A stretch of 64,000 nt of DNA, from the NCBI RefSeq assembly GCF_002797685.1, contig NZ_PGFH01000001.1:62001-126000 (forward strand), read 5' to 3'. The notes under the pieces are model-generated. The model did no database searches and was not told where the DNA came from. It saw nothing but the letters and a program-made list of their open reading frames with translations. This stretch comes from Salinibacterium amurskyense. Lineage in GTDB: Bacteria; Actinomycetota; Actinomycetes; Actinomycetales; Microbacteriaceae. Positions 2,073 through 20,210 of the stretch are shown piece after piece (position 1 is the stretch's first letter; every line of letters starts with the position of its first letter). Both the position numbers and the translations under genes were made by a program.

Positions 2073-3586
2073 GAGGCCACCTCCGCGTGGGTTGCGGCGA
2101 ACATGACGGACTCAGCCGTGGCGTCCGCTCGATCAATTTCTGCAGTGATGCGGCCTTCATGCACCACGAGAACTCGGTCGGCCATGCCCAGGACTTCGGG
2201 CAGTTCGCTCGAGATCATGATGATGGCGAGGCCTTCCACGGCGAGCTCCGAGAGCAAGCGGTGAACTTCGGCCTTGGTGCCGACGTCGATGCCTCGCGTT
2301 GGTTCATCGACGATGAGCAGGCTCGGGTTGGTGGCGAGCCATTTGGCGAGCACCACCTTCTGCTGGTTGCCACCGCTGAGGGTGCCGACTTCGGTATCGA
2401 GTGCCGAGGCCTTCACTTCGAGCTTGTTTGCCCAGGTACGAGCGCTGGCATTCTCGACTGCACTCGTGATGAAACCGAACTTGGCGAGCGCCGAGCGGAT
2501 AGCAAGCGTGGCGTTCTTAGCAACGGATGACTCGAGCACCAGTCCTTGGCGACGTCGATCTTCGGGCACCAAGGCCAGCCCGAGGTTCATCGCAGCGGCC
2601 GGGTTGCGCTTGGGAATGCGAGTGCCGTTGATCGTCACCGTTCCCGTCTTATAAGGATCGACGCCAAAGATAGCGCGGGCGATCTCACTCCGGCCGGCAC
2701 CTACAAGACCGGCGAGCGCCACAATCTCCCCAGCACGGACCGAGAAGTTGATGTCGTGAAACTCACCAGGTTCGGTCAGGCCCGAGACTACGAGGACTTC
2801 GTCACCGATAGGCGCATCGATCTTAGGGAACAGCGAGGCCACATCGCGGCCGACCATCTGGCGAACGATTTCGTCGACAGTCGTCTCGGCGATCGGGCTC
2901 GTAGAAATGTAAGCACCATCGCGCATGATGGTGACGGTGTCGCAGAGGTCGAAGACTTCTTCGAAGCGGTGAGAGATGAAGAGAAGTGCACGACCTTCAT
3001 CGCGAAGGCTGCGGGCGACAGCGAAGAGACGCTCTACCTCAACCCCGCTCAGGGCAGCGGTTGGCTCATCCATCACAAGCACTTTGGCGTCGAGCGAGAT
3101 GGCCTTCGCGATTTCGATGATCTGCTGGTCGGCGATCGAGAGCCCCTGCGTCGGGCGGTCGGGGTCGATGCGAACGCCAAGACGCTCGAAGAGGCCGAGC
3201 GCTTCGGTGTGCATCTTCTTGCGATCGATGCGACCGAGCGACTTGATGGGCTGGCGGCCCATAAAAATGTTCTCCGTAACCGACAGGTCAGGAAAGAGCG
3301 TCGGCTCTTGGTAGATAACCGCGATGCCCGCGCTCTTGGACTGAGCGGTCGACGTGAAATCAACGGTCGTGCCTTCGAGAGTGAAGTCGCCGCCATCGCG
3401 CTGGTACAGCCCGGCGATGATCTTCACGAGTGTGGACTTGCCTGCACCGTTCTCGCCAACGAGGGCGTGGATCGAACCGGGGTGCAGGGCGAGTGTGCCG
3501 TTGGTTAGCGCGACCACCGAGCCAAAAGTCTTCGCGATGCGCGAGAGCTCAAGCGTGGGTGCGCTTGGCTGCGTGCTGTTCGACAT
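2069..3586 (-). CDS. rhaT: Rhamnose ABC importer, fused ATP-binding protein
   Basis: This 505-residue protein has the tandem nucleotide-binding domains of the RbsA/XylG/RhaT family. The first domain has a full Walker [10 protein letters not shown], at residues 44-52 and the Walker [12 protein letters not shown]. The second domain has the family's degenerate P-loop (LVGAGRSE) but keeps LSGGNQQK and [11 protein letters not shown]. It energises sugar import with the two downstream permeases. A GAGGT ribosome binding site lies 9 bases before the ATG. It is transcribed divergently from rhaM. The shared 225-bp spacer carries two LacI-type operators, so rhamnose-dependent derepression is the likely control. 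Confidence 0.88.
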
Positions 3587-3811: not shown

Positions 3812-4150
3812 ATGACCCGCGTGTGCTTCCAACTGCAGGTGCGACCCGAACGACTCGAGGAGTACCTCGCGCGCCACACTCCCGTCTGGCCCCGCATGCT
3901 CGAGGAGATCGAAGCATCCGGTCGCCGCAACTACTCCCTCTTCGTTCGCCCCGATGGAATGCTCATCGGCTACTACGAGACAGACTCGGTCGAAGCATCC
4001 CAGGCCTACCTCGACCGCAGCGCGATCGCCGCCGAGTGGGAAGCGGAAATGGCAGAGTTCTTTGTTGCCCTCGATGGTCGCCCCGATCAGGTCGCAACAA
4101 CGCTCCCCGAGGTGTTCAACCTCGCCGACCAGCTCGCCGCCGCACACTAG
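3812..4150 (+). CDS. rhaM: L-rhamnose mutarotase
   Basis: This 112-residue protein belongs to the RhaM/YiiL family, which interconverts the alpha and beta anomers of L-rhamnose in the cytoplasm before isomerisation. Recognisable family features are the N-terminal RVCFQLQVRPERLEEY strand-helix, HTPVWPRMLEEI near residues 22-33, and the RRNYSLFVRPDGMLIGYYE core, which contains the conserved Tyr. The length is normal (about 104-115 residues). The ATG is preceded by GAAAGG at good spacing. It is divergent from the importer operon and convergent with the LacI gene, 29 bases away. Confidence 0.92.
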   Translation: MTRVCFQLQVRPERLEEYLARHTPVWPRMLEEIEASGRRNYSLFVRPDGMLIGYYETDSVEASQAYLDRSAIAAEWEAEMAEFFVALDGRPDQVATTLPEVFNLADQLAAAH

Positions 4151-5432: not shown

Positions 5433-6599
5433 GTGACCAGCTTCAGCTCCATCGCAGCCCGCCTCGAAGAGCAGGCCATCGAACTTCCCTCCTGGGCATT
5501 CGGCAACTCCGGCACCCGTTTCAAGGTTTTCGGCACTCCCGGAACGCCTCGCACCCCCGAAGAGAAGATTGCGGACGCTGCTCAGGTCAACAAGTACACG
5601 GCACTCTCGCCGACAGTTGCCCTCCACATCCCATGGGACAAGGTTGACGATTACACCGCCCTGCGCACCTTCGCCAACGACCACGGCGTTGACCTCGGTA
5701 CGGTGAACTCGAACACCTTCCAAGACGATGACTACAAGTTCGGTTCGCTCACTCACGTCGATCCCACGATTCGCCAGAAGGCGATCGACCACCACTTCGA
5801 GTGCATCGATGTGATGGATCAGACGGGTTCGCGCGACCTCAAGATCTGGCTCGCTGACGGTTCCAACTACCCCGGCCAGGCCGACATCCGTGGTCGCCAA
5901 GATCGCCTTGCCGACTCCCTGCAAAAGATCTACGACTGCCTCGGCGACGAGCAGCGCATGGTGCTCGAGTACAAGTTCTTCGAGCCCGCTTTCTACCACA
6001 TGGATGTCCCGGACTGGGGAACCAGCTACGCGCAAGTAGCCGCGCTCGGCGAGCGCGCTCTCGTGTGCCTCGACACGGGCCACCACGCCCCCGGCACCAA
6101 CATCGAGTTCATCGTGATGCAGTTGCTACGCCTCGGCAAGCTCGGTTCCTTCGACTTCAACTCGCGCTTCTACGCCGATGACGACCTCATCGTGGGTGCC
6201 GCCGACCCCTTCCAGCTGTTCCGTATCCTCTACGAGGTCGTTCGCGGCGGCGGCTACGGTGCCGACAGCGGCGTGGCTTTCATGCTCGATCAGTGCCACA
6301 ACGTTGAAGACAAGGTTCCCGGTCAGATGCGTTCGGTGCTCAACGTGCAGGAGATGACCGCTCGTGCACTGCTCGTCGATTCGGATGCTCTCACCGCTGC
6401 GCAAGACGCCGGTGATGTTCTCGGTGCCAACGGCATTCTGATGGATGCCTTCTACACCGACGTGCGCGCTGACCTTGCTGCTTGGCGCGAGTCGCGCGGC
6501 CTGCCCGCCGACCCGATGGCGGCGTACGCAGCATCCGGTTACCAGCAGAAGATCGCCGAAGAGCGCGTTGGTGGCGTTCAGGCTGGATGGGGAGCCTAG
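5433..6599 (+). CDS. rhaI: L-rhamnose isomerase
   Basis: This enzyme converts L-rhamnose to L-rhamnulose. The 388-residue product is of the RhaI (Pseudomonas stutzeri-like) type with a xylose-isomerase-like TIM barrel, not the E. coli RhaA type. Probable metal-binding segments are EYKFFEPAFYHMD, CLDTGHHAPGTNIE and DFNSRFYADDD. I chose the GTG at 5433 because AAAGGA lies 6 bases upstream. The open frame extends to an ATG at 5361, but those 24 residues (MMSETPHTRRP...) do not look like the family and would follow the operator almost directly. It is followed after 87 bases by a second lacI gene. Confidence 0.9.
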   Translation: MTSFSSIAARLEEQAIELPSWAFGNSGTRFKVFGTPGTPRTPEEKIADAAQVNKYTALSPTVALHIPWDKVDDYTALRTFANDHGVDLGTVNSNTFQDDDYKFGSLTHVDPTIRQKAIDHHFECIDVMDQTGSRDLKIWLADGSNYPGQADIRGRQDRLADSLQKIYDCLGDEQRMVLEYKFFEPAFYHMDVPDWGTSYAQVAALGERALVCLDTGHHAPGTNIEFIVMQLLRLGKLGSFDFNSRFYADDDLIVGAADPFQLFRILYEVVRGGGYGADSGVAFMLDQCHNVEDKVPGQMRSVLNVQEMTARALLVDSDALTAAQDAGDVLGANGILMDAFYTDVRADLAAWRESRGLPADPMAAYAASGYQQKIAEERVGGVQAGWGA

Positions 6600-6651: not shown

Positions 6652-6670
6652 TTTGGTTCATTGAATCAAA
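6652..6670. promoter_or_regulatory. Operator of the second LacI class (autoregulatory site)
   Basis: TTTGGTTCATTGAATCAAA is a 19-bp inverted repeat around a central T with one mismatched pair. Its core GGTTCA-T-TGAATC matches the tandem sites at 15782-15808. It ends 16 bases before the start of the lacI gene at 6687, which suggests autoregulation. Confidence 0.7.
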
Positions 6671-6686: not shown

Positions 6687-7736
6687 ATGGCGAACATTCG
6701 GGACGTGGCGCGGCACGCGGGAGTGTCCGCGGGCACTGTCAGCAACGTACTCAATCGCCCGAGCTACGTCAACGCTGCGACACGCGAAAAGGTGCTGAAC
6801 TCGATCAAAGAGCTCGAGTTTGTTCCCGTCGCCAACGCCCGCCAGTATCGCCCCGGACGCGAACGAACGCTGGGCTTCGCTCTCGCCGACATGGGCAACC
6901 CCTTCTTCGTCGATGTCGCCCTCGGCGCTGAAGCCGCCGCTAAGGAATTCGGCGTTGGAGTGGTAATCGTTCACAACGGCGAAGACCCCGCCCGTGAACA
7001 ACAGAACCTCGACCTGCTCGTGCAACAACGCGTGCACGGCATCATGATCACCCCGGTCGATGAACGCAACCCTCGCCTCGAGGAACTCATTGCACGCGGC
7101 GTGCCCGTGGTCTACGTGGACCGCATCTCGGGTGACCACCCCTGCTGCTCGCTCGCCACCGACGACTTTGCCGGTGGAAAGATCGCCGGAGAACATCTGC
7201 TCGACCTCGGCCACACCCGGATCGCTTTTGTGGGCGGATCTGCCATCTCTCGCCAGGTCGACGAGCGCTTCAACGGTCTCACCGCCGCCGCTACGAAAGC
7301 GGGGCTCGCCCCATCCGACATTGAACGCATCGACGTTCCCTCATGGAAGTTTGCCGAAGGCCGTCACGCCGGCAGGCTCATCGCTGAACGCCCCCGCGAC
7401 GAGCGCCCGACCGCAGTCTTCTGCGCCAACGACATGCTCGCCCTCGGTGTGCTTCAAGAGTTTGTGCTCGACGGCATCTCAGTGCCCGACGAGATCTCCA
7501 TCATCGGCTTTGACGACCTCGATTGGGCCAGCGCCGCCACGGTTCCCCTCACGACTGTTCGTCAGCCGCGAGAGGAACTCGGCCGCACCGCGGTGCGGAT
7601 GATTCTCGACGAGATCGAGCAGGGTGCATCCCATGAGCACGAGCACGTCATCTTCGAGCCCGAACTCATTGTGCGAGCATCCACGGGCCCGTCGCCGAAG
7701 CTACGAGACAGCGCACCAAGCGCGCTGCTGGTCTGA
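6687..7736 (+). CDS. LacI-family regulator of the second sugar operon
   Basis: This is a 349-residue LacI/GalR repressor. The N-terminal HTH (NIRDVARHAGVSAGTVSNVLN) is followed by a sugar-binding core with the conserved IIGFDDLDWASAATVPLTTVRQP segment near residues 270-290. It is a clear paralogue of the regulator at 4180-5202, but the hinge and operator differ. GGTTCAnTGAACC-like sites occur before this gene and before the operon starting at 15703, so it likely controls that operon and itself. GGAAGG precedes the ATG. Its 3' end overlaps the end of the convergent oxidoreductase gene by 36 bases. Confidence 0.85.
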   Translation: MANIRDVARHAGVSAGTVSNVLNRPSYVNAATREKVLNSIKELEFVPVANARQYRPGRERTLGFALADMGNPFFVDVALGAEAAAKEFGVGVVIVHNGEDPAREQQNLDLLVQQRVHGIMITPVDERNPRLEELIARGVPVVYVDRISGDHPCCSLATDDFAGGKIAGEHLLDLGHTRIAFVGGSAISRQVDERFNGLTAAATKAGLAPSDIERIDVPSWKFAEGRHAGRLIAERPRDERPTAVFCANDMLALGVLQEFVLDGISVPDEISIIGFDDLDWASAATVPLTTVRQPREELGRTAVRMILDEIEQGASHEHEHVIFEPELIVRASTGPSPKLRDSAPSALLV

Positions 7737-8834
7737 TTTTTCGACAGCGTCGATTACCTTCTGAATCTCCCACGCCTCACGGAAATCGGGCGACGACGAA
7801 GTGCCCGCAACGATGGCATCGATAAACTTCTTGACCTCAAAAATCTTGAGTTCGTGCAGCCCGATGTTGATTCCCGACATCGGCCACAGCGCTGCGTAGT
7901 CGCCATGCCTCGGCCCCAGTTCAATCGTGCGGAAGCCGTGCGAGTCGAGTCCATCAGAGTCGAGCGAAACCTCGAGTTTGTGGCTGTCTTGCTGACTGAA
8001 GCGGATGGCGCCGCGGGTGCCGGTGAGCGTAAACGACACTTCAAAGGCACGCCCCACGGCTACGCGGCTTGCCTGCATTGAGCCAATAGCCCCATTCGCA
8101 AATTCGAGCAGCGACAACGAGTAGTCGTCGTTGTCAACGGTGTGCCGGATGCCGTCAGCGTCATTGCGCTCCGGGACAACGATCTTCGTCATGCCGCTCA
8201 CCCGGGCAACATCGCCAACAAGGTGACGCGCGAGAGAGATCATGTGCGACCCGAGATCGCCGAGCGCTCCGCCACCGGCCCGCGCCCGGTCAGTGCGCCA
8301 CGTGAATGGCACGTCGGGGTCGATCATGGTGTCAGCGCTGAAGAAGCCGGTAAAGGAGATGAGTTCGCCCAGCTCTCCCGCATCGATGAGTTGTCGAGCA
8401 AGGGTGATACCGGGGTTCTGCAGGTAGGTGAAACCGACCTGAGTGGTGACTCCCGCTGCTTCGGCTGCTTCGGTCATGGCCAAAGCGCCCTCAACGGTGA
8501 GCGCCAAAGGCTTCTCGCACCAGATGTGTTTGCCGGCGCGTGCCGCCGCAATCGCCACTTCTTCGTGGAAGGCATTGGGGGTAACGATGTTGATGATGTC
8601 GATCTCGGGATCGTTCACGATGTCCTGCCATGAATCGGATGCCCGTTCGAAACCGTACTGCTCGGCCGCAGCCTGAGCACGTTCGAGAGTGGGATGAACA
8701 AGCGCTACGAGCCGTGGCTCCAGCCCCACATCCCCAAAAACAGCACGGACATTTCGCCACGCCATTGAATGCTCTTTTGCCATGAGGCCGTCACCGATGA
8801 GTCCGATTCCCACGGTCTTAGTCGTCTTATTCAT
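7701..8834 (-). CDS. Gfo/Idh/MocA-family sugar dehydrogenase
   Basis: This 377-residue NAD(P)-dependent oxidoreductase has an N-terminal Rossmann fold (GIGLIGDGLMAKEHSMAW, residues 9-26). The family signature CEKPLALT follows, with GGGALGDLGSH in the C-terminal domain; the conserved Lys of EKP and the His of GSH are present. Family members oxidise or reduce sugars, inositols and sugar acids. It is the last gene of the second sugar operon, after the binding-protein gene and an intercistronic hairpin. It probably catalyses the first redox step on the imported sugar, but the substrate cannot be read from the sequence. Confidence 0.82.
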   Translation of the reverse strand: MNKTTKTVGIGLIGDGLMAKEHSMAWRNVRAVFGDVGLEPRLVALVHPTLERAQAAAEQYGFERASDSWQDIVNDPEIDIINIVTPNAFHEEVAIAAARAGKHIWCEKPLALTVEGALAMTEAAEAAGVTTQVGFTYLQNPGITLARQLIDAGELGELISFTGFFSADTMIDPDVPFTWRTDRARAGGGALGDLGSHMISLARHLVGDVARVSGMTKIVVPERNDADGIRHTVDNDDYSLSLLEFANGAIGSMQASRVAVGRAFEVSFTLTGTRGAIRFSQQDSHKLEVSLDSDGLDSHGFRTIELGPRHGDYAALWPMSGINIGLHELKIFEVKKFIDAIVAGTSSSPDFREAWEIQKVIDAVEKSDQQRAWCAVS

Positions 8835-8878
8835 GCGCTTGCTCTCTCCTCGTCGTTAAGGATGGGGGTGTTAAGAAC

Positions 8879-8908
8879 GTGGGGCCACGCTTCTCAGCGT
8901 GGCCCCAC
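8879..8908. terminator. Strong intercistronic hairpin between binding protein and dehydrogenase genes
   Basis: A perfect 13-bp stem (GTGGGGCCACGCT and its complement) closes a 4-base loop. It lies 21 bases after the binding-protein stop. There is no T run on the minus strand after it. It may act as a partial terminator or as a 3' end stabiliser that sets a high level of binding protein relative to the dehydrogenase. Confidence 0.65.
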
Positions 8909-8929
8909 AGAATCTTGCTCGCTCTCGAC

Positions 8930-9916
8930 TTAGAGGGCGGGCTCCAGGTCGTCAACGTTGTCGATGTCGACGATGGTGTTCTCCAGCGGGACCATCTCGG
9001 GAACCGTCTCACCCTTCATCACGGAGATGAGGGTTTCGATGGCGAGTTCACCGTTGCGGAACGGAGGCTGCAGGATGGTGCTGAACTGCTTGCCTTCGCG
9101 GATGTTGTCGAAGGCTCCAGCCTCACCGTTGATGCCAACAACGACCGGAACGAAGTCGAGTCCGCTCTCTTCGAGTGCCTGCAGGAAGCCCTTGGCCATC
9201 GTGTCGTCCTGAGCGTAAACGCCCTTGATCTGGTCACCGAACTTGGTGATGAGGTCGCGCGAAGCTACGAGAGCCTTCTGCTGGTCGAAGTCAGCGTTGA
9301 CCGTGGCGAGAATCTCGAGCCCTGAACCCATGCTTTCGAGTTCGTCGAGGAAGCCACCACTGCGGGCGATCTCAGTACCGTTTCCGGCCTGGCCCGCAAT
9401 AACAACGATGCCGCCAGTGCTGTCGAGGGCACCGTCGAGCTGCTGAGCGCTGATCTTGCCCTGGTCGTACTTGTCGGCGCCTGCGAAGGACTGAATGAGC
9501 TCCATCGACTCGTCACCGGCACGGGTGTCGATGGCGACAACGGGGATGCCAGCCTGCTCTGCCTTGAGCAGTCCAGGCAGGTAGCTGTTCTCGTCTGCTG
9601 GCCAGAGCAGGATGCCGTCAACACCGCGCGAGACGCAGGAGTTGAGCTGTTCTGCGCCGGTCTGAGCCGAGAACTCTTCGCTGACGATGGTGAGCTCTAC
9701 GCCGGCTGCATCTGCAGCGGCCTGAGCGCCCTCGTTAGCCGGGGTGACGTAGGGGTGTGAGTTGGCGAGCGTGACATAGCAAATGCTCTTGCCTTCGACA
9801 CTGCCTGCGTCGCCGGATGCTGAGTCCGTGCCTGAATCGGCGGCGGTGCAGCCTGCTACTGCGAACAGAAGCGTGGCAGCAGCCGAGGCGACGAGGATAT
9901 TACGACGTGCAATCAT
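8930..9916 (-). CDS. Sugar ABC importer, substrate-binding lipoprotein
   Basis: This 328-residue protein starts with a lipoprotein signal peptide whose lipobox is VAGC, lipidated Cys at about residue 23. A type I periplasmic-binding-protein fold (Peripla_BP_4, RbsB-like) follows, with segments such as DGILLWPADENSYLPGLLKAEQAGIPVVAIDT. It captures the sugar outside the membrane for the two permeases encoded upstream in the same operon. Its start overlaps the upstream permease gene by 4 bases. Sugar specificity is unknown. Confidence 0.88.
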   Translation of the reverse strand: MIARRNILVASAAATLLFAVAGCTAADSGTDSASGDAGSVEGKSICYVTLANSHPYVTPANEGAQAAADAAGVELTIVSEEFSAQTGAEQLNSCVSRGVDGILLWPADENSYLPGLLKAEQAGIPVVAIDTRAGDESMELIQSFAGADKYDQGKISAQQLDGALDSTGGIVVIAGQAGNGTEIARSGGFLDELESMGSGLEILATVNADFDQQKALVASRDLITKFGDQIKGVYAQDDTMAKGFLQALEESGLDFVPVVVGINGEAGAFDNIREGKQFSTILQPPFRNGELAIETLISVMKGETVPEMVPLENTIVDIDNVDDLEPAL

Positions 9917-10935
9917 GCGTTCCTCCTAGGAAGTGGTGTGTTTCTTGGTGCGACCCTCACGCTTCTCTGCGCGCGGGAAGATGCGCCGCCATGTCCGGAG
10001 ACAATGCGGTCGAGGCTGATCAGAAGGATCAGCAGAAGGCCGGTGTAGATGGCCTGGGTGTACGACGGAACGCCGTTGTATTCAAGGGCTGTCGTGAGGG
10101 CGCCGAGGGCGAGCACTCCGCCGAGGGTGGCGAGCGACGAGCCGCGGCCACCTTCGAGTCGCGTGCCACCGATGACCACAGCGGTAATCGCGGGGATCAA
10201 CATGACGGCACCGGCAACAGGTGACCCTGCGGCGGTACTCAGCGACTGCATCATCCCTGCTAACCCGGCAAAGAAGCCCGACAGAATGAAGGACGTTGCA
10301 ATGTACCCGTTGGCGTTGATGCCGCTTGAGGTGGCTGCCGGAGCATCGCTGCCGACCGCGTAGAGGTTGCGCCCGGTGGGGGTGAGCTTCAGCCACACGA
10401 ACATCAGCACGGCAGCGGTCAAGAAGATCGCCGATCGTGGTGTGAGTATCCAAAGGAAGTCAGCTGTCAACGGAAGACCGAAGATCGGGTCTTCTGAACT
10501 CAACGGGTACGAGTTCGTGAGCAGCAGGGCAAGTGACGCGAAGATCAACAGCGTGGCCAAGGTCGCGACGAGCGAGTTGATCTTGAACACCACCACCATC
10601 AACGCATTGACCGCACCGATCAGAATGCCGACGGCGACACCCGCGGCGGCGGCCGGAACGTTGCCGATGACCGGCTGCATGAAGATCGTGGTGATGCCCG
10701 CCATCGACATCATCGATCCAATAGAGAGGTCGATCTGGCCCGCGATCAGCACTGGCGTAAGGCCGAGTGCCAAGAAGCCGACGACCGTTGCTCTGTCGAG
10801 CACCGACTGGAGCGTGTTGACGGTGAGGAAGTCGTCGAGGCTCAGGCCGCCAAAAACGGCGACCGCAACGAGCATGATGACCAGTCGGTACTGAACCGCA
10901 CGGGTACCGAGTAGAGCGAAGTCGAAGTTTTTCAC
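9913..10935 (-). CDS. Sugar ABC importer, permease
   Basis: This 340-residue RbsC-like permease has about nine membrane segments and the family motif GQIDLSIGSMMSM near residue 66. It is fourth of the five genes that overlap stop-to-start from DUF4432 to the binding protein. It differs clearly from the rhamnose permeases, so this is a separate transporter and not a recent duplication. The C terminus is basic and cytoplasmic. Confidence 0.85.
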   Translation of the reverse strand: MKNFDFALLGTRAVQYRLVIMLVAVAVFGGLSLDDFLTVNTLQSVLDRATVVGFLALGLTPVLIAGQIDLSIGSMMSMAGITTIFMQPVIGNVPAAAAGVAVGILIGAVNALMVVVFKINSLVATLATLLIFASLALLLTNSYPLSSEDPIFGLPLTADFLWILTPRSAIFLTAAVLMFVWLKLTPTGRNLYAVGSDAPAATSSGINANGYIATSFILSGFFAGLAGMMQSLSTAAGSPVAGAVMLIPAITAVVIGGTRLEGGRGSSLATLGGVLALGALTTALEYNGVPSYTQAIYTGLLLILLISLDRIVSGHGGASSRAQRSVRVAPRNTPLPRRNA

Positions 10936-11915
10936 AGTCTTCCTGCCTTCCGACGAAAGTACGCGTCGATGCCGACGGCTCCGAGCACAATGGCGCCCGT
11001 GATGAGTCCGGTTGCTTGGCTGGGGAAGCCGAGCAAGATGATCAGGTTGCCGATGAGGGCGGTGATGAGCACGCCGCCGACGGTGCGCAGCACGCTACCG
11101 TTGCCGCCGAAGACGCTCGTTCCGCCGATCACCACTGCGGTGATCGCCACGAACTCGTAGCCGGTACCGATGATGGGGCGCGCTTGGCCGTTGCTCAGAG
11201 CAAGAAGCACTCCGCACAGTCCGGCGAGAAAGCCCGTCATTGCAAACGCGGCGGCCTTCGTGAATCGCACGGGAACCGCGCTGGCCTGAGCTGCTTGGTA
11301 GTTGCCACCGACCGCAAGGCTCCAGCGACCAAACGAGGTGCGGGCGAGCAGCGGATGCAGAATCAAGGCCACGAAGATGAAGATCCAGATGAACACCGGG
11401 ATGCCCAGGATGCTGCTCTTCACGAACGTGGAGAGAGCGCTCGGCTGGGCGTACACAATGCCACCACCGACGAGCAGCTGGCTCAGGCCGAGGAGCACCG
11501 AGCCGGTGCCCAGAGTCGCGATGATCGGGTTGATGCGCAGGTAGCCGATCAGGATGCCGTTGACGACACCACCCATACTCGCGACGAGCAAGCCCATCAG
11601 CGCAGCGAGGCCGGTGCCCATCGATTCTTGAGCACCGAGGGTGACGAGGGCGCCCATGGCGACGTTGGCCGGAACAGAGAGGTCGGCGAGACCTCCCGAG
11701 ACCATCACGAAGGTCATACCGAGGGCGATGAGGCCCACCGCCGAGTTGGCGTTGAGCACGTTGGTCAGGTTGTTTACCGTCAGAAATGACGGTGAGGCAA
11801 CTGACCCAATAACGACGAGCACCAGAATTGCAATGGGGATGCTCAGCGTACTGAACAGTGCGCCGGGCGTTTTGCTCTTGTCGAGGCTTTTCGCGGGTGC
11901 GACGAGCTGATTCAT
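10932..11915 (-). CDS. Sugar ABC importer, permease
   Basis: This 327-residue RbsC-like permease is the second channel subunit of the importer. It contains SGGLADLSVPANVAMG in place of the usual GxIDLSVGS motif, and the C-terminal TAVVIGGTSVFGGNGSVLRT segment. It overlaps both neighbours by 4 bases. The altered motif (ADLSVPA) may reflect divergence of one half of a heterodimeric channel. Confidence 0.85.
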   Translation of the reverse strand: MNQLVAPAKSLDKSKTPGALFSTLSIPIAILVLVVIGSVASPSFLTVNNLTNVLNANSAVGLIALGMTFVMVSGGLADLSVPANVAMGALVTLGAQESMGTGLAALMGLLVASMGGVVNGILIGYLRINPIIATLGTGSVLLGLSQLLVGGGIVYAQPSALSTFVKSSILGIPVFIWIFIFVALILHPLLARTSFGRWSLAVGGNYQAAQASAVPVRFTKAAAFAMTGFLAGLCGVLLALSNGQARPIIGTGYEFVAITAVVIGGTSVFGGNGSVLRTVGGVLITALIGNLIILLGFPSQATGLITGAIVLGAVGIDAYFRRKAGRL

Positions 11916-13423
11916 GCGGCCACCTCCTGACCTGTTGCGGCGCGCATGACCGACTCTTCGGTTGCATCCGCGCGGGAAATTTCTGCCGAGATCACGCCTT
12001 CGTGCAACACGAAGATGCGATCGCAGACTGCGAGCAGTTCGGGCAGCTCGGAGCTGATCATGAGTACTCCGCCGCCGTCTTGGGCGAATTCGCCAATGAT
12101 GTGATGGATGTCAGCTTTAGCGCCCACATCGACACCTCGGGTTGGCTCGTCGAGAATGAGCAGCTTCGGTTCGGAGAGCAGCCACTTGCCGAGAACGACC
12201 TTCTGCTGGTTTCCCCCACTGAAGACGTTGAGCGGACGCTCGACCTGGGGCGGGTTGACCTTGAGACGGTCGGCAAGCTCCGTGACGATCTTGCGTTCCT
12301 TGCCCAAGAAGATGAGCAGGGCATTTGTGATGCGCGTGATCACCGGCAGGGTGAAGTTTTCGCGAACCGACAACCCCGGAATGATTCCTTGGCCCTTTCG
12401 GTCTTCGGGAACAAGAGCGACCCCGGCGGCAACCCCCTGACGAGGCGAGCGGATCTTCACCGTCTTGCCCGCGAGGGTGATGGTGCCTTCTTCGAGCGGA
12501 TCGAGCCCAAACAGTGCGCGAGCAACTTCGGTGCGGCCTGAGCCGACGAGGCCTGCTAGCCCGACGATCTCGTGCTTGCGAACATCCAGAGTCACATTGT
12601 CGAACTGACCGGCACGCGATGCGCCGACAACCGACAAGACTTGCTCGCCGAGCTCGAGATCAAATTTGGGGAACATCTCGTTGAGGTCGCGACCGACCAT
12701 GAGGCTGACCATCTCATCGGGAGTGATTCCCGCGACGTCCCGAGTTTCGATGTGGCGGCCGTCGCGAAGAACGGTTACCCGGTCGCCGATTTCCATGACC
12801 TCTTGAAGGCGGTGACTGATGTAGATGATCGCGATGCCGCGGTCACGCATCTTGGTGATGACATCGAAGAGAACGCGAGTCTCTTTGTCTCCCAGCGACG
12901 ATGTCGGTTCATCGAACACCACAATGTTCGGCTGGCGCGCGACAACCTTGGCGATCTCGACCAGCTGTTGCTGGCTAATAGAGAGGTCGCCCAAACGCGT
13001 GCCCGGATCGATGTCGGTGTCGAGTTCGTCGAGCACCGCAGCAGCTTTCGCGTTCATCGCGCGGTAGTCCACGAAAGGACCACGCTTGGGCATCGCGCCC
13101 AAGCTGATGTTCTCGGCCACCGAAAGATCGGGAACGAGGTTGAGCTCTTGGTAGATCATGCCGATACCTCGGCTGCGGGCTTCGCGCGGGGTCCAGTGGG
13201 TCGCTTTGCGACCACCGACCTCGATCTCGCCCTTATCGGGCTGGTAGAAACCGGCCAAAATCTTCATCAGCGTGGACTTGCCAGCGCCGTTCTCTCCGAC
13301 GATGGCATGCACTTCGCCCTCGTTGATCTCAAGATCAACGTCTTGAAGCGCCATCACGCCGGGAAAGGATTTGGTGATCCCGGTCATCCGAAGAGCGACT
13401 GCGGGTGTCGACTCGGTTGTCAT
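11912..13423 (-). CDS. Sugar ABC importer, fused ATP-binding protein
   Basis: This is a 503-residue RbsA/MglA-type double ATPase. Walker [10 protein letters not shown] is at residues 43-51 and Walker B is VVFDEPTSSL. The degenerate second P-loop is LVGSGRTE, followed by FSGGNQQKV and LILDEPTRGVD. It is similar in plan to RhaT at 2069-3586 but clearly diverged. The start overlaps the DUF4432 stop by 4 bases, and GAGGGGAG inside that gene serves as ribosome binding site. Confidence 0.88.
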   Translation of the reverse strand: MTTESTPAVALRMTGITKSFPGVMALQDVDLEINEGEVHAIVGENGAGKSTLMKILAGFYQPDKGEIEVGGRKATHWTPREARSRGIGMIYQELNLVPDLSVAENISLGAMPKRGPFVDYRAMNAKAAAVLDELDTDIDPGTRLGDLSISQQQLVEIAKVVARQPNIVVFDEPTSSLGDKETRVLFDVITKMRDRGIAIIYISHRLQEVMEIGDRVTVLRDGRHIETRDVAGITPDEMVSLMVGRDLNEMFPKFDLELGEQVLSVVGASRAGQFDNVTLDVRKHEIVGLAGLVGSGRTEVARALFGLDPLEEGTITLAGKTVKIRSPRQGVAAGVALVPEDRKGQGIIPGLSVRENFTLPVITRITNALLIFLGKERKIVTELADRLKVNPPQVERPLNVFSGGNQQKVVLGKWLLSEPKLLILDEPTRGVDVGAKADIHHIIGEFAQDGGGVLMISSELPELLAVCDRIFVLHEGVISAEISRADATEESVMRAATGQEVAA

Positions 13424-14466
13424 TCTGAACTCCCCTCATCGCGAACACTGTCTGATCCATTGGTTCGCTGAAGTGTGAATCGCACACTGTAGCTGACGCT
13501 CTGCCCGGCAGGGATCGAGGTGAGCTCGCCGGCCTCGCGTGCTGCATTGCGTCCGAAAACGTTGGCGGTGTTAGTTGGTTCGATGCCTAAGGCGTAATGC
13601 CCCTGACCGACCATCTTCCACTGGAAGAGCCACGGGAGCTCCAGCCCGGAGAACTCGACAATCAGTTCAAGACCGAGATCGGGGTTCGTTACACGTACCT
13701 GTGCCGCCGGCTCGTCGCCGATCGTGTGGCGGAAAACCTGTTCGGCGAATCCGGGAGTGGGCGCGGCGCCTGTCTGCCAGGTATCGATTCCCTTCTCTCC
13801 CTCGGCGTCGCGGGCGACGGTTTCGCGGGAGGGAATATCGACAATGGTGTTTTCTGACAGCAGCGGCCAGCCGAGGTTGATGTGGTACAGAATCATGTGC
13901 GGCTGCTCGGCGAATGACTCGTTGGTCACGGTGTCTTCGAGCAGGAACGACGTCGCGCCGACCTCAGCCGAAATCGTGCGCTGCAGCGTCAGGTTCTCGC
14001 CAAAGACAGCGGCCTGACGAGTAACGGCCTTGACCACTACTTCGCGGGCGTTGGCTTCGGCTCGGATGACGCGAGCTTTCTGCGCACCGATGCGGCCGTG
14101 CAATCCCAAAGTCTGCCCCGCGTCGTCACCAGCCGGCCCGAACGTGTCGAGACCACAGGTGGCGAGCAGTCCGCCGCCGAAGGTCCGCAACCAACCAGCG
14201 CCCTCGGGTTCAAATGCTTCAGGGGCGGTGATCTCGGTCGGCGAGATCCACGCGATGGGGATGCCGTCGAACGTGACCTGCCCGATGTCGAGCGCCCGGT
14301 CCGGATGAAGTTCGACCTCCATACCGCTGCCGTTCACCATCCGCAGACGGCGCGCACCCCGCGCAGGCCCTTCGGCCTCCACGAAGCTGTCGAGTCGAAC
14401 GACCTGAGAGAGCGAACCTACGCGTTCTCTCAGGGCCGTTCCCTCGCGACCAAAAACGTTAGACAT
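13420..14466 (-). CDS. DUF4432 family, aldose-epimerase-like protein
   Basis: The 348-residue product resembles the DUF4432 branch of the galactose-mutarotase fold. Characteristic stretches are MEVELHPDRALDIGQVTFDGIPIAWISP, GLHGRIG and YHINLGWPLL, and the C terminus carries GIEPTN. Such proteins are thought to equilibrate sugar anomers or act on sugar ketones, but few have been characterised. I start at 14466 (MSNVFGREG). The 74 residues further upstream are read antiparallel to nothing recognisable and overlap the previous gene. This start overlaps the cupin stop by 8 bases. It probably prepares the imported sugar for the neighbouring isomerase or dehydrogenase. Confidence 0.78.
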   Translation of the reverse strand: MSNVFGREGTALRERVGSLSQVVRLDSFVEAEGPARGARRLRMVNGSGMEVELHPDRALDIGQVTFDGIPIAWISPTEITAPEAFEPEGAGWLRTFGGGLLATCGLDTFGPAGDDAGQTLGLHGRIGAQKARVIRAEANAREVVVKAVTRQAAVFGENLTLQRTISAEVGATSFLLEDTVTNESFAEQPHMILYHINLGWPLLSENTIVDIPSRETVARDAEGEKGIDTWQTGAAPTPGFAEQVFRHTIGDEPAAQVRVTNPDLGLELIVEFSGLELPWLFQWKMVGQGHYALGIEPTNTANVFGRNAAREAGELTSIPAGQSVSYSVRFTLQRTNGSDSVRDEGSSE

Positions 14467-15703
14467 GGAGTCCCAATTCGGCGTTCTCGGGACCGAAGTG
14501 CTTGAGAATAACGAGGTCCTGGGTAGCGGAGCGGTTAGTAACGGTAACTCCGGCGCGAGCTGCCGACTCGGTGACGAAGAACTCGTCTTGGCTGAGCTGT
14601 CCGAAGCGGATGAGCGTGGCGGCGGCGATGTCGTGGGTGCCGAGCGTTCCGGTTCCCTGCACGGCAATGAGACCGTACGCATCAGCATCCGTCACCGTCA
14701 CCGACTGGCCCGGGCGAACAGTGAGCTCCTTCGCGCTGAAGTGAGGCGAGCGGTACACGATCCACTTTTCAACGTACGCGGTCTCGCCATCAGCCAGCGA
14801 CTGCGCGGTCGAGTACGGCGCCATGAAGCGGTTCGTCACGAAGTTGGGGTCGGTGTTCTTCTCCCAGTCGAGCAAGGAAATGATGAAGTCGAAGTCTCCG
14901 TGGTGCTCCGGCGGAACGTCCTTCCACAGGAGTTCCTCGGGAACCTCGCGGTTATTGCTCCACGACTCACACATGCAGAAGACGTCGCAGGCGGCTTGGG
15001 GTTCGTAGGTGCAGATACTGGCGGGAGCGTGCAGAACGCCCGACGGGATGTCCCACCCGGTGCCGAGCTGAGTGCGGTAGCCGCGCGAAAGATCGGTGAT
15101 GCGGTTGTCGCCACCGTCGCCGAAACGCATGAGGCGGGCTTTCACCTGATCAGTGGTGACCTCGGGCTGGAAGCCGAGGAACGAGATCGGCTGGTCGCCC
15201 AAGTGGTTGTTCATGTGAGGCGAGTAGTAGTAGGCCTCGGGCTTGCCGGGCTTGTCTACGAGCGCAGCTTTCTCATCCGTGTGGTGCACGTGAAAAGGCA
15301 GCGCCTGCTGGTTGTCGAAGAACTTCGAGTACATCGGCCACTTCTCGTGCTGCGTCCAGAGACGCTCACCAATCGCTTCGCCCTTGTGGTGTCCGACGAA
15401 TTCGTCGAAGGGAAGCAGTGCGCCACCATCGGGGTCAACGACGAGGCTGAGGCCTTCGTTTGCTCCCGTGAGAGGCCCGTTGTCGGCGCGAACGGCGGAA
15501 GAGAGCCAGCGCTCATCGATGCCGCCCCGGCCCTGGGCGAAGGGGAAGTAGTCATCCGGGTGAAGGCGGATACGGCGACCGGGAGTGCAGAATGCGCGGG
15601 GAACCCAGGTGGGGGCGAGCTGAACGATGCCCTGCCCAGCTTCGAGAGCGCGATCCATGCCGGATGCGCTGCTTGCGACGTTTTCGTACGCTCCATCGAC
15701 CAT
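14459..15703 (-). CDS. MPI-like cupin sugar isomerase (type I phosphomannose isomerase fold)
   Basis: The 414-residue protein shows the layout of zinc-dependent type I phosphomannose isomerases. A HVH pair at residues 138-140 sits in PFHVHHTDEKA, a KPE at 154-156 in GKPEAYYY, and a later metal His at about 225 in IPSGVLHAPAS. It could therefore interconvert an aldose (or aldose phosphate) and a ketose. I start at 15703 with AAGGAGA upstream; the frame reaches 15751. It is the promoter-proximal gene of the second sugar operon, behind tandem GGTTCAnTGAACC sites. The substrate is unknown and a non-phosphorylated pentose or hexose is possible. Confidence 0.68.
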   Translation of the reverse strand: MVDGAYENVASSASGMDRALEAGQGIVQLAPTWVPRAFCTPGRRIRLHPDDYFPFAQGRGGIDERWLSSAVRADNGPLTGANEGLSLVVDPDGGALLPFDEFVGHHKGEAIGERLWTQHEKWPMYSKFFDNQQALPFHVHHTDEKAALVDKPGKPEAYYYSPHMNNHLGDQPISFLGFQPEVTTDQVKARLMRFGDGGDNRITDLSRGYRTQLGTGWDIPSGVLHAPASICTYEPQAACDVFCMCESWSNNREVPEELLWKDVPPEHHGDFDFIISLLDWEKNTDPNFVTNRFMAPYSTAQSLADGETAYVEKWIVYRSPHFSAKELTVRPGQSVTVTDADAYGLIAVQGTGTLGTHDIAAATLIRFGQLSQDEFFVTESAARAGVTVTNRSATQDLVILKHFGPENAELGLHV

Positions 15704-15781
15704 GTGCGATTCTCCTTCTTCAAGCCGGTGCGGCAGCTTGGCGAATCGCACAGGCTGCTCTGCCGTGTCTAGTTCAGTTCT

Positions 15782-15808
15782 GGTTCAATGAACCGGTGTT
15801 CAGTGAAC
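15782..15808. promoter_or_regulatory. Tandem LacI-type operators of the second sugar operon
   Basis: Two palindromes lie 15 bases apart centre to centre: GGTTCAATGAACC at 15782-15794 and GTTCAGTGAAC at 15798-15808. Both match the core of the site at 6652-6670 upstream of the second lacI gene. They sit about 80-105 bases before the cupin gene start, in the promoter region. Confidence 0.72.
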
Positions 15809-15880
15809 CTATCACTCGTGACGGGAAAGTGTCAACGCTCAACCACATTGGTGCAGATGCGGGGGCGCCCCTCGAACGTT

Positions 15881-15920
15881 TGTGTGAAATTTCGTGGGTT
15901 GTAACATGAAATCTCACACA
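15881..15920. promoter_or_regulatory. DeoR-type inverted repeat upstream of deoR-like gene
   Basis: Arms TGTGTGAAATTTC (15881-15893) and GAAATCTCACACA (15908-15920) are inverted with one mismatch and a 14-base spacer. The right arm ends just before the GAGGA ribosome binding site of the gene at 15936. It is probably the autoregulatory site. A related half-site occurs before rhaEW (16732-16747). Confidence 0.68.
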
Positions 15921-15935
15921 CCACCGAGGAGCACG

Positions 15936-16779: not shown

Positions 16780-18816
16780 ATGACGAACCCCACTGCCGCT
16801 GAACTCATCGCTCGGTCGAACCGCCTCGGTTCTGACCCACGCGTCACCAACTACGCCGGCGGCAACACGTCGGCCAAGGGCACCGAAACGGATCCGGTTA
16901 CCGGCGAGCCCATCGAACTCATGTGGGTGAAGGGCTCCGGCGGAGACCTCGGGACGCTCACCGAGTCAGGCCTCGCCGTACTGCGCCTCGACCGCCTGCG
17001 CGCCATGACCAACGTCTACCCCGGCGTTGACCGCGAAGATGAAATGGTGGCGGCGTTCGACTACACGCTGCACGGCAAGGGTGGCGCCGCGCCATCCATC
17101 GACACCGCCATGCACGGACTCGTGGATGCTGCGCACGTCGACCACTTACACCCCGACTCGGGAATTGCTTTCGCCACCGCCAAGGACGGCAAGAAGCTCA
17201 CCAAGAAGGCATTCGGCGACCAAGTTGTGTGGGTTGGCTGGCGTCGCCCCGGCTTCCAGCTCGGACTCGACATCGCCGAGATCAAGGCGAAGAACCCGAA
17301 GGCGATCGGCTGCATCCTCGGTGGCCACGGCATCACCGCGTGGGGCGACACGAGCGACGAAGCAGAAGCCAACAGCCTCTGGATCGTCACGACCGCCGAA
17401 GAGTACATCGCCGCGAAGGGCAAGAAGGCACCGTTCGGTCGCAACGTTGCCAAGAACGCTGCACTTCCCGAGGCCGAGCGCCGCGAGAAGGCCGCCGCGC
17501 TTGCCGCAACCATTCGCGGCATCGCGAGCCACGATCGCCCCATGGTCGGTCACTTCACCGACTCTGACGTCGTTCTCGACTTCCTCGCTTCGGCGAACGC
17601 CCCCAAGCTCGCCGCTCTCGGCACGAGCTGCCCCGACCACTTCTTGCGCACCAAGGTCAAGCCGCTGCTGCTCGACCTGCCCGCTAACGCGTCGGTCGAG
17701 AAGAGCATCGAGCGTCTGAAGGAACTCCATGAGGAGTACCGCAAGGACTACACCGCGTACTACGACAAGTTCGCCACCGACGACTCCCCCGAGATCCGCG
17801 GCGCAGACCCGCTCATCGTTCTCGTTCCCGGCGTCGGAATGTTCAGCTACGGAGCGAACAAGCAGACCGCCCGCGTTGCCGGCGAGTTCTACGTGAACGC
17901 CATCAACGTCATGCGTGGCGCCGAAGCAATCTCGAGCTACGCCCCCATCAGCGACGCCGAGAAGTTCAACATCGAATACTGGGCACTCGAAGAAGCCAAG
18001 CTGCAGCGGATGCCCAAGCCCAAGTCGCACGCCACGCGCGTTGCTCTCGTCACTGGCGCAGCATCCGGAATCGGTAAGGCCATCGCTACCCGCCTCGCAG
18101 CGGACGGCGCCTGCGTCGTTATCGCCGACCTCGACCTTGAGAAGGCTCAGGCCGCCGCCGCCGAAATCGGAAACACTGATGTCGCCATCGGCCTCAAGGT
18201 CAACGTGACCGACGCCGAAGCGATCGACCGCATGGTTCAGGATGCCGTCCTCGCCTTCGGTGGCATCGACATCGTGGTGAACAATGCCGGAGTTTCACTC
18301 TCGAAGCCGCTGCTGGAGACCACCGAGAAGGATTGGGACTTCCAGCACGACATCATGGCCAAGGGTTCGTTCCTTGTCTCCAAGGCGACCGCGCCGGTAC
18401 TGATCGATCAGGGAATGGGTGGCGACGTCATCTACATCTCGTCGAAGAACTCGGTCTTCGCTGGCCCGAACAACATTGCGTACTCGGCCACCAAGGCCGA
18501 CCAGGCTCACCAGGTGCGACTCCTCGCAGTCGAGCTGGGCGAGCACGGCGTGAAGGTCAACGGCATCAACCCCGACGGCGTCGTACGCGGTTCGGGAATC
18601 TTTGCCGCCGGCTGGGGTGCCAACCGCGCCAAGACCTACGGCATCGAAGAGGACGACCTCGGCAAGTTCTACGCTCAGCGCACGATCCTCAAGCGTGAGG
18701 TTCTGCCGGAGAACGTGGCGAACGCGGTATCGGTGCTCACGGGCCCCGACCTCAGCCACACCACTGGTCTCCACATCCCCGTTGATGCTGGTGTTGCGGC
18801 GGCCTTCCTCCGATGA
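16780..18816 (+). CDS. rhaEW: Bifunctional rhamnulose-1-phosphate aldolase / lactaldehyde dehydrogenase
   Basis: This 678-residue fusion carries out the last two steps of rhamnose breakdown. L-rhamnulose 1-phosphate is split to dihydroxyacetone phosphate and L-lactaldehyde, and lactaldehyde is oxidised to L-lactate. Residues 1 to about 410 are a class II aldolase/adducin domain with zinc-ligand candidates in VDHLHPDSG and GGHGITAWGD. Residues about 423-678 are a short-chain dehydrogenase with TGAASGIG, NNAG, a catalytic-type Ser in YISSKNS and Tyr-x3-Lys in YSATKADQ. The architecture matches RhaEW of comparative-genomic work on rhamnose regulons (B. subtilis YuxG type). It overlaps rhaB by 4 bases. 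Confidence 0.92.
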   Translation: MTNPTAAELIARSNRLGSDPRVTNYAGGNTSAKGTETDPVTGEPIELMWVKGSGGDLGTLTESGLAVLRLDRLRAMTNVYPGVDREDEMVAAFDYTLHGKGGAAPSIDTAMHGLVDAAHVDHLHPDSGIAFATAKDGKKLTKKAFGDQVVWVGWRRPGFQLGLDIAEIKAKNPKAIGCILGGHGITAWGDTSDEAEANSLWIVTTAEEYIAAKGKKAPFGRNVAKNAALPEAERREKAAALAATIRGIASHDRPMVGHFTDSDVVLDFLASANAPKLAALGTSCPDHFLRTKVKPLLLDLPANASVEKSIERLKELHEEYRKDYTAYYDKFATDDSPEIRGADPLIVLVPGVGMFSYGANKQTARVAGEFYVNAINVMRGAEAISSYAPISDAEKFNIEYWALEEAKLQRMPKPKSHATRVALVTGAASGIGKAIATRLAADGACVVIADLDLEKAQAAAAEIGNTDVAIGLKVNVTDAEAIDRMVQDAVLAFGGIDIVVNNAGVSLSKPLLETTEKDWDFQHDIMAKGSFLVSKATAPVLIDQGMGGDVIYISSKNSVFAGPNNIAYSATKADQAHQVRLLAVELGEHGVKVNGINPDGVVRGSGIFAAGWGANRAKTYGIEEDDLGKFYAQRTILKREVLPENVANAVSVLTGPDLSHTTGLHIPVDAGVAAAFLR

Positions 18817-20210
18817 ACGCACAAGTTATCGCCGCGGTCGATCTGGGTGCGACCAGTGGCCGAGTCATGCTCGGCCACGTGGGTCACAACGAGCTCTCGG
18901 TTCGCCCCGTTGCACGTTTTCCCAACGGGCCAGTTCGCCGCGCCGATGGCTTGCACTGGGACATTGATGCGCTCTACTCGAGTGTTCTCGCTGGCTTGGC
19001 GGCTGCTGTTCGTGAAGAGCCGCAGCTGTCGAGCATCGGCGTGGACTCGTGGGCGGTTGACTACGCGCTGATGGCGGGCGGGCAGATGGTTGCCCCTCCG
19101 TTCCACTACCGCGATGATCGTACGGCGGCGGGCGTGGAGCGCGTCCACGCGATCGCCGATCATGCTGAGTTGTATGCGTCGAACGGTCTGCAGTTTCTTC
19201 CCTTTAATACGCTGTACCAGTTCGCTGCCGAGCAGAACCTTGCCGAGGTGGACGGCTTCCTTCTCGTCCCCGACCTCATCAACTACTGGTTGACGGGGCG
19301 TCAGGTTGCCGAGCAGACCAACGCCTCGACAACCGGGTTGCTGAATCTGGCGACCGGCCAGTGGGATGATGCGCTCATCGAGAAGCTCGGGTTCTCCCGC
19401 AGCCTCTTCCCCGAGCTGGTTACTCCCGGCACGACGCTGGGGCCGGTGCGCGACGAGCTCGGCATCCGTGCCGACGTGGTCGCTGTTGGATCGCATGACA
19501 CGGCATCCGCTGTCGTCGCGGTTCCGGCCACGAACGACGACTTCGCGTACATCTCCTGTGGCACCTGGGGGCTAGTGGGTGTTGAGCTCAACTCCCCCGT
19601 GCTCACCGAAGCCAGCCGGGCCGCGAACTTCACCAACGAGGGCGGTGTGGACGGACGGGTGCGTTACCTGCACAACGTCATGGGCCTCTGGCTGCTGAGC
19701 GAATGCGTGCGCGACTGGCAGAAGGAAGACGCCAGCGTCGACTTGCTCGACCTGCTGGCGGCGGCATCCGCTCTCACGACGACGGTGCCGATCTTCGACG
19801 CCAACGACGCCCGCTTTCTCGCCCCCGACGGCATGCCCGAACGCATCGCCGCCTGGTGCACCGAACACGATGTGCCAGCGCCGCAATCGCGCGTGGAGTT
19901 TGTGCGCAGCATCATCGAAAGCCTCAGCGTTGCTTTCGTGGATGCCGTACGCACGGCTTCAGACCTCTCCGGAAAGTCGGTGTCGGTCATCCATATCGTC
20001 GGCGGTGGTTCGCAGAACGAGTTGCTCTGCCAGCTGATCGCGGACCGCAGTGGAATGCCGGTGCTCGCCGGCCCCGTGGAGGCCACGGCTATTGGCAACG
20101 TGCTCGTTCAGGCGCGCGCCCAAGGCTTCGTCGAGGGTTCGTTGGAGAGTTTGCGCAGCCTCGTCGCTGCCGCGTTTTCGCCGAAGCGCTACTTGCCGCG
20201 TTCGCAGTAG
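18813..20210 (+). CDS. rhaB: L-rhamnulokinase
   Basis: This 465-residue FGGY-family kinase phosphorylates L-rhamnulose at O1 using ATP. The N-terminal phosphate-binding stretch AAVDLGATSGRVMLG, the central GSHDTASAV and AYISCGTWGLVGVEL, and the C-terminal HIVGGGSQNELLCQLIAD with the GPVEATAIGN adenosine region are all typical of RhaB. It is cytoplasmic and translationally coupled to rhaEW through an ATGA overlap. A G+C-rich hairpin follows the stop. Confidence 0.92.
   Translation: MNAQVIAAVDLGATSGRVMLGHVGHNELSVRPVARFPNGPVRRADGLHWDIDALYSSVLAGLAAAVREEPQLSSIGVDSWAVDYALMAGGQMVAPPFHYRDDRTAAGVERVHAIADHAELYASNGLQFLPFNTLYQFAAEQNLAEVDGFLLVPDLINYWLTGRQVAEQTNASTTGLLNLATGQWDDALIEKLGFSRSLFPELVTPGTTLGPVRDELGIRADVVAVGSHDTASAVVAVPATNDDFAYISCGTWGLVGVELNSPVLTEASRAANFTNEGGVDGRVRYLHNVMGLWLLSECVRDWQKEDASVDLLDLLAAASALTTTVPIFDANDARFLAPDGMPERIAAWCTEHDVPAPQSRVEFVRSIIESLSVAFVDAVRTASDLSGKSVSVIHIVGGGSQNELLCQLIADRSGMPVLAGPVEATAIGNVLVQARAQGFVEGSLESLRSLVAAAFSPKRYLPRSQ

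Follow-up and report, generated by a model that had tools for sequence, protein, structure and literature searches.

The window analysed here, a stretch of 64,000 nucleotides from Salinibacterium amurskyense (62-126 kb of the first contig; genome 2.78 Mb), carries a distinct sugar module under a LacI regulon of its own. The module is an operon of seven minus-strand genes, which encode a double cupin, a DUF4432 protein, an RbsA-type ATPase, two permeases, a binding lipoprotein and a Gfo/Idh dehydrogenase; neighbouring genes among the first six overlap by 4-8 nt. We regard it as a probable deoxysugar island whose isomerase-like family has no name in Pfam or NCBIfam. We see roughly even chances that the module performs the LacI-controlled import, mutarotation and isomerisation of a neutral L-deoxyhexose-like sugar, followed by a Gfo redox step and entry into the RhaB and RhaD reactions.

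An earlier note on this DNA had counted eight genes in the operon. The LacI gene lies on the other strand and is convergent with the last gene of the operon (Gfo/Idh), so the count is seven. Pfam matches confirmed that DUF4432, an RbsABC-type importer with its lipoprotein, and Gfo/Idh are encoded on the minus strand. As the note had also said, the operon contains no kinase or aldolase: none of the seven proteins matched such a family in Pfam.

The operator and the LacI regulon

With up to one mismatch, the genome holds the pattern GGTTCANTGAACC three times: twice before the cupin gene and once before the LacI gene. The reversed control pattern occurs at one place in the whole genome. With up to two mismatches, five matches were found in the window alone, against 1.78 expected. 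Therefore, the weaker sites count little singly. The exact operator precedes the cupin gene in 18 of 20 Microbacteriaceae-type loci, and a LacI homologue was found in 16 of the 20. No LacI match was found in the operator-less loci L006 and L007, nor in the covered stretch of L010, which does carry the operator. In Jiangella (L029), the operator precedes a run of GHL6 hydrolase, cupin and DUF4432 genes.

The exact operator was also found in the genomes of six of 20 relatives, each time before a cupin gene. Four of the six were already known cupin carriers (G000, G082, G197 and G394); in G399 and G404, the operator match came first and the cupin was then found beside it. Thus, the operator makes the regulon findable by pattern alone, and it led to the cupin in two further genomes. 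Among the 14 operator-negative relatives, the cupin was searched for in G145 and G372 only and was absent from both.

The rhamnose importer, RhaM and RhaI carry distinct, CG-centred TGAAWCGWTTCA sites (three found, 0.32 expected). The regulator and operator class that the earlier note ascribed to the operon are thus its own. The LacI protein has a helix-turn-helix domain, and the operator occurs at its own gene and at the target operon. From these sequence features we infer that LacI binds GGTTCANTGAACC and represses both; the inducer would be the sugar itself or a metabolite close to it.

Between the binding-protein and Gfo/Idh genes is a hairpin whose stem is 13 bp long; on visual inspection, L002 and L008 show a stem at the corresponding place. 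Since the hairpin separates the two genes, Gfo/Idh may be expressed at a different level from the rest of the operon.

The cupin family and its neighbourhoods

The window cupin is 99% identical to those of marine actinobacterium PHSC20C1 and Salinibacterium. It gave no Pfam or NCBIfam match at E 0.001 and no meaningful match to PDB sequences. An AlphaFold2 (AF2) model was built from 47 sequences (predicted local distance difference test, pLDDT, 93.5). In Foldseek, ranks 1-17 for this model were all phosphomannose isomerases (PMI, or mannose phosphate isomerase, MPI), with E values down to 6e-18. The template-modelling (TM) score was 0.57-0.61 by query length and up to 0.80 by target, and the identity in the structural alignments was only 9-15%. 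The predicted model thus has the class I PMI (ManA) fold. In a global hhalign comparison with 13 MPIs, the probability was 87.7% and E was 3.8e-7.

Seven residues (K127, H138, H140, K154, E156, H225 and E234) are invariant across the 47 aligned cupins. In the profile alignment, the MPI zinc ligands correspond to H140, E156 and H225; H138 falls on a Gln, and K127, K154 and E234 fall on other ManA residues. In what we take to be E. coli ManA numbering, the cupin keeps the residues paired with K86, H99, K132, E134, H255 and E264, and Q97 is replaced by His. Its metal motif is therefore His-x-His...KPE...His instead of the Gln-x-His...Glu...His of PMI. No conserved Arg was found at the place of R274 of Salmonella PMI in that stretch of the aligned cupins; the role of R274 is assumed here, and an R274 mutant appears as a PDB title. 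The cupin thus resembles ManA in its predicted fold and, by alignment, in having His, Glu and His at the metal-ligand places together with two lysines and another Glu, whereas it differs in the lack of a Pfam match, the Gln-to-His change, the lack of a conserved Arg at the R274 place and its location in sugar import operons. Of the "MPI-like zinc cupin" of the earlier note, the fold stands and the family does not: none of the Pfam models for MPI matches it, and there is a separate ManA/MPI in the genome. A role as the housekeeping mannose enzyme was rejected on this latter ground. The modelled fold and the conserved site support an isomerase-like cupin, probably one acting on a free sugar.

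Relatives of the cupin span eight phyla; a plasmid search gave a single match, at 31%. In a midpoint-rooted tree of 49 sequences (L006, L007, L073, L074 and L045 are outside it), one long, fully supported branch separates two sides. The first side holds 22 rows (Bacillota, Spirochaetota and Opitutae), 11 with a kinase and none with a Gfo or hydrolase label. The other 27 rows include the window, all nine Gfo rows, three hydrolase rows (L023, L029 and L038) and six kinase rows.

Neighbours were counted within 10 kb of the cupin in 74 loci. FGGY kinase was found in 33 loci, which supports the isomerase role. LacI was found in 28, DUF4432 in 22, LsrF-like proteins in 15, a type-B class II aldolase in 11, UlaE-like proteins in six, and an RbsA-like ATPase in 38 by a loose count that takes in some other ABC ATPases. 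A TIM barrel occurs in seven loci, with a weakly similar barrel in L032. FucU-like proteins occur in five, and L036 has both FucU-like and DUF4432. These mutarotase candidates, together with a RhaM-like protein in L038, are consistent with a mutarotase role for DUF4432.

The association of the cupin, DUF4432 and the importer goes beyond chance: they follow in that order in 17 of the 20 Microbacteriaceae-type loci, and three loci of Bacillota (L035, L036 and L044) likewise hold all of them. The window type (the window, L002, L003 and L008) has the order cupin, DUF4432, ATPase, permease, permease, binding protein, Gfo, and G376 (L087) has this order without Gfo. The other Microbacteriaceae type (type B, 14 loci) has an importer like the rhamnose importer of the window, a class II aldolase in 11 loci and FGGY kinase in 10. 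Two type-B binding proteins were tested and were RhaS-like (253 and 306 bits, cut-off 342).

The automatic count of Gfo was 14. Since L014, L018 and L030 match a second, different Gfo, 11 loci were left, concentrated in few lineages. An own FGGY kinase is present in none of these 11 and in 33 of the 63 loci without window-type Gfo (Fisher 8e-4, kinship ignored). Because the two do not co-occur, a kinase-free branch is suggested. Outside Microbacteriaceae, FGGY kinase is the commonest enzyme partner of the cupin (23 of 54 loci), and the isomerase step would therefore often feed a phosphorylative route. A wholly non-phosphorylative route, as suggested in the earlier note, is therefore not supported; only the Gfo variant lacks its own kinase, and in the window it lies beside RhaB. 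A PF01261-type barrel and Gfo accompany the cupin in loci of Planctomycetota, Verrucomicrobiota and Bacteroidota; in L032, from Acidobacteriota, the barrel found with the cupin and Gfo is weakly similar.

Two loci types drew attention in their own right. Robinsoniella L030 contains two cupins of the family (10001-11191 and 15736-16968), one after GH95 and LacI and before an importer, the other before a kinase and an epimerase. In spirochaete loci (L052, L069, L072 and others), the cupin lies beside LsrF-like proteins, an LsrK/XylB-like kinase, a SorC-type regulator or a RhaS/LsrB-like binding protein; these loci resemble an autoinducer-2 operon and may be a sugar operon instead.

The DUF4432 match to PF14486 lies above the cut-off of 32.5, and the PDB entry matched, 3ty1, is titled "hypothetical aldose 1-epimerase". 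The start of DUF4432 is taken as 14466, which differs from the longest-ORF start. Since RhaM is present, DUF4432 was rejected as the rhamnose mutarotase. The fused ATPase, the PF02653 permeases and the Peripla_BP_4 binding protein identify a CUT2 (RbsABC) importer; the binding protein matched 19 NCBIfam models and scored under the cut-off in every case. Gfo/Idh scored 353 bits against the levoglucosan dehydrogenase model (cut-off 650) and is therefore not assigned to that equivalog. Its best PDB matches were 6a3f, a levoglucosan dehydrogenase (285 bits), and 5ya8, a scyllo-inositol/L-glucose dehydrogenase (280 bits). No PF01261 (LgdB1-type) partner was found among the seven operon genes. For these two reasons levoglucosan catabolism was rejected.

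The sugar and the rival explanations

In the reading that we prefer, the binding protein and the two-permease ABC importer would take up a neutral aldose from the L-rhamnose/L-fucose group, DUF4432 would speed the interchange of its ring forms, and the cupin, with a PMI fold minus one PMI arginine, would convert the free aldose to a ketose. Many relatives encode nearby an FGGY kinase, which would take over the ketose, and a class II or LsrF-like aldolase or an epimerase for the step after it. In the window variant, which has no kinase or aldolase of its own, Gfo/Idh would make an NAD(P)-linked adjustment, and the product would join the adjacent steps of RhaB (kinase) and RhaD (aldolase and dehydrogenase).

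The cupin is present in 16 of 398 Microbacteriaceae genomes. The rhamnulose-phosphate aldolase/dehydrogenase RhaD-ADH is found in all 16 and in 202 of the 382 genomes without the cupin (p 1e-4), and rha genes lie within 10 kb of the module in 19 of the 20 Microbacteriaceae-type loci. The link to rhamnose enzymes drawn in the earlier note is supported by both counts.

Fucosidase-type hydrolases lie beside the cupin in seven of the 74 loci. GHL6 hydrolases are 18-37 bp from it in L006, L007, L023, L029 and L074; these pairs comprise the near-copies L006 and L007, Jiangella L029, and one metagenome-assembled genome each of Armatimonadota and Clostridia. In L086, GHL6 is 4.3 kb from the cupin. Two GHL6 proteins were compared with PDB, and the best match of both was the alpha-L-fucosidase 6tvk (E 4e-18 and 3e-18), which belongs to GH151 according to PMC10154630. 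GH95 occurs at the cupin loci L038 and, by Pfam, L030; in L038 the RhaM-like gene lies between GH95 and the cupin. Five GH29 queries at E 1e-6 matched only GHL6 genes within the loci. Among large neighbours, 68 of 148 proteins were compared with Pfam and 25 of 111 families were inspected, which gave GH95 (1), GH39 (1) and GH18 (2); the others looked unrelated. The frequency of GH29 was rejected as proof of fucose: in a sample of 35 non-Microbacteriaceae genomes and L008, it was found in 26 of 36 against 3 of 14 controls, which were unmatched, and GH-rich taxa dominate.

In the Acidobacteriota locus L032, a run of cupin, barrel and Gfo continues with two further genes, one of them aldehyde-dehydrogenase-like by eye and the other similar to class II aldolases. 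By analogy, this row resembles PVM-like (Planctomycetes-Verrucomicrobia) microcompartment loci. According to PMC4207490, PVM compartments with such a class II aldolase degrade fucose and rhamnose, and PVM-like loci occur in Solibacter. The hydrolases, the rha neighbours and the L032 row therefore point to an L-deoxyhexose. We infer an L-6-deoxyhexose; that it is of the L-fucose type is a tentative proposal, which we doubt more than we believe.

Several results weigh against our reading. L086 also carries a GH78 rhamnosidase, which fits rhamnose as well as fucose. By count in the alignment of the L007 GHL6 with 6tvk, the nucleophile Asp is conserved and an Asp stands in place of the acid/base Glu. 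No microcompartment shell-protein motif was found in L032 or the other cupin loci (74 searched), and no GHL6 match in the window genome at E 1e-15. With RhaI and RhaM in place, neither the cupin nor DUF4432 is needed for rhamnose itself, and the binding protein of the window is RbsB-like rather than RhaS-like. L-fucose may already be handled by a second cluster at 328.8-336.7 kb of the genome (L121 3789-11743), which encodes two enolases, a fuconolactonase-like amidohydrolase (168 bits, cut-off 400), an RraA-like protein, a CUT1 importer and a RhaM-like mutarotase. The FucI N-terminal domain PF07881 exceeds its cut-off in 19 of 35 cupin genomes from outside the Microbacteriaceae; within that family it does so in none of 17, and a weak pass of PF02952 was seen in two of 16. 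Neither domain was found in the cupin or in the window genome. The cupin as a simple FucI replacement everywhere was rejected, given those 19 genomes. Most clostridial and spirochaete cupins lie across the long branch from the window and possibly act on another sugar. The action of RhaB and RhaD on the product is assumed, and no member has a tested activity that we know of.

If the sugar were L-lyxose (or L-mannose), the cupin would give L-xylulose for RhaB and RhaD, and Gfo would be accessory. L-lyxose shares the C2-C4 configuration of L-rhamnose, E. coli mutants use rhamnose enzymes for it, and six cupin loci have a XylB-like kinase and an L-ribulose-5-phosphate 3-epimerase-like protein. However, these epimerase loci are unlike the window: L034, L037, L041 and L047 lie across the long branch, L045 is outside the tree, and in L030 the epimerase follows the second cupin. 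Moreover, the seven adjoining hydrolases argue against L-lyxose and Gfo is left unexplained, so that we regard it as unlikely. We think no better of a route in the style of levoglucosan or C-glycosides, in which Gfo would first oxidise a ring hydroxyl of a glycoside or anhydrosugar and the cupin would act on the keto-sugar, with no aldose isomerisation. The nearest relative of Gfo in PDB favours it, although 5ya8 is close, and the loci with cupin, barrel and Gfo recall the pairing of LgdA with LgdB1 (253 of 265 neighbourhoods, PMC10066097). The low score on the levoglucosan model and the lack of a PF01261 protein oppose it, and 63 of the 74 cupin loci have no window-type Gfo.

The adjoining rhamnose genes, and RhaD-ADH in all 16 Microbacteriaceae genomes with the cupin, would also suit a back-up rhamnose module, with the cupin as a second rhamnose isomerase and the importer as a second rhamnose importer. 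Since RhaI, RhaM and a RhaS importer are already present, the operator class is separate and the binding protein scores only 48 bits on RhaS, we consider this improbable. Similarly, we give little credit to the cupin being an epimerase, a lactonase or a binding scaffold in a general aldose scavenging system. The low identity to PMIs, the hhalign probability and the sugar-acid dehydratase-like genes in L029, L038 and L075 would allow it; the invariant metal and lysine site and the association with kinases speak against it. L-deoxyhexose isomerisation thus remains our preferred reading. A bolder form of it, which we rate a long shot, makes the cupin a phosphate-free PMI-fold aldose isomerase for L-fucose-type sugars and, with Gfo, a kinase-free bridge between deoxysugar series. 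L-fucose would be converted to L-fuculose by the cupin, and then by C4 oxidation and re-reduction (Gfo, bound NAD) to L-rhamnulose for RhaB and RhaD. If true, the bridge would account for the missing kinase and aldolase, the location in a rhamnose island and the exclusion between Gfo and an own kinase.

Known systems, neighbouring genes and significance

The earlier note knew of no characterised pathway with this gene set, and none was found in the literature searched, a coverage that excludes most subscription journals. With the levoglucosan pathway (LgdA-LgdB1-LgdB2-LgdC), the operon shares an LgdA-related Gfo/Idh, a sugar ABC importer and LacI, whereas its Gfo is under the LgdA cut-off, it has no PF01261 protein, and it has the cupin and DUF4432. 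The type-B relatives share with the L-fucose pathway (FucI-FucK-FucA, FucU) an isomerase candidate, a mutarotase candidate, FGGY kinase and a class II aldolase; they differ in the absence of the FucI N-terminal domain noted above, and the window variant also in having no kinase or aldolase. DUF4432 and a CUT2 importer are likewise found in the E. coli yph cluster, in which the DUF4432 protein YphB goes with an RbsABC-type importer and which, to our knowledge, has no cupin and no Gfo; PF14486 is present in E. coli. The L-rhamnose regulons (RhaI/RhaB/RhaD-RhaEW) described in PMC3870299 share with the module the neighbour genes, the LacI and DeoR regulators and the lldD link, and the word cupin does not occur in the main text of that paper.

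The coordinates of the features are listed in Table 1. A second Gfo/Idh protein (20371-21402, minus strand) is convergent with the RhaB-like gene and kept in L002, L014 and L018 (86-92%); its best model was D-xylose 1-dehydrogenase at 92 bits, far under the cut-off of 350. A lactate dehydrogenase gene (22133-23500, plus strand) near rhaDB, which we take to be lldD-like, was matched in 11 of the 20 Microbacteriaceae-type loci. The lldD gene is present in Actinomycetales Rha regulons (PMC3870299). In L038 (6042-14049), LacI, GH95, the RhaM-like mutarotase, the cupin, an Iso_dh-type dehydrogenase and an altronate-dehydratase-like gene stand in a row.

Table 1. Positions of the module, its regulatory features and its neighbours in the window
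Feature	Position	Strand	Evidence
Double cupin of MPI fold (414 aa; first gene), predicted to be an aldose-ketose isomerase	14459..15703	-	model, Foldseek, conserved site
DUF4432 protein, 348 aa; predicted sugar mutarotase	13420..14466	-	PF14486 313 bits; PDB 3ty1 E 4.5e-25
RbsA-type ATPase, two ABC domains	11912..13423	-	PF00005, two stretches
Permease 1	10932..11915	-	PF02653
Permease 2	9913..10935	-	PF02653
RbsB-type binding lipoprotein	8930..9916	-	PF13407
Intercistronic hairpin, binding protein / Gfo/Idh gap	8879..8908	-	minimum free energy -40.4 kcal/mol over 96 nt, z -4.46
Gfo/Idh/MocA dehydrogenase, 377 aa, last gene	7701..8834	-	PF01408, PF02894
LacI-family regulator, proposed for the operon	6687..7736	+	PF00356 and sensor domain; operator before own gene
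Operator 1, exact GGTTCATTGAACC	15782..15794	-	pattern scan
Operator 2, one mismatch	15797..15809	-	pattern scan
Operator 3, one mismatch, ~20 bp before LacI start	6655..6667	+	pattern scan
TTGACA directly upstream of operators, possible -35	15830..15835	-	by eye; not listed by consensus scan
L-rhamnose isomerase RhaI (neighbour)	5433..6599	+	PDB 2hcv E 9e-92
Rhamnulose-phosphate aldolase / short-chain dehydrogenase RhaD-ADH (neighbour)	16780..18816	+	TIGR02632 1003 bits, cut-off 568
RhaB-like FGGY kinase (neighbour)	18813..20210	+	weak FGGY kinase match
Rhamnose importer (neighbour)	43..3586	-	its binding protein, just outside the window, RhaS 387 bits (cut-off 342)
RhaM rhamnose mutarotase (neighbour)	3812..4126	+	PF05336 86 bits, cut-off 23

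Relatives of the cupin adjoin kinases, mutarotases and fucosidase-type hydrolases. If the cupin were assigned, many import operons, among them spirochaete and Bacillota ones, would gain an annotation at the same time, and the family might yield a new isomerase for rare L-sugars.

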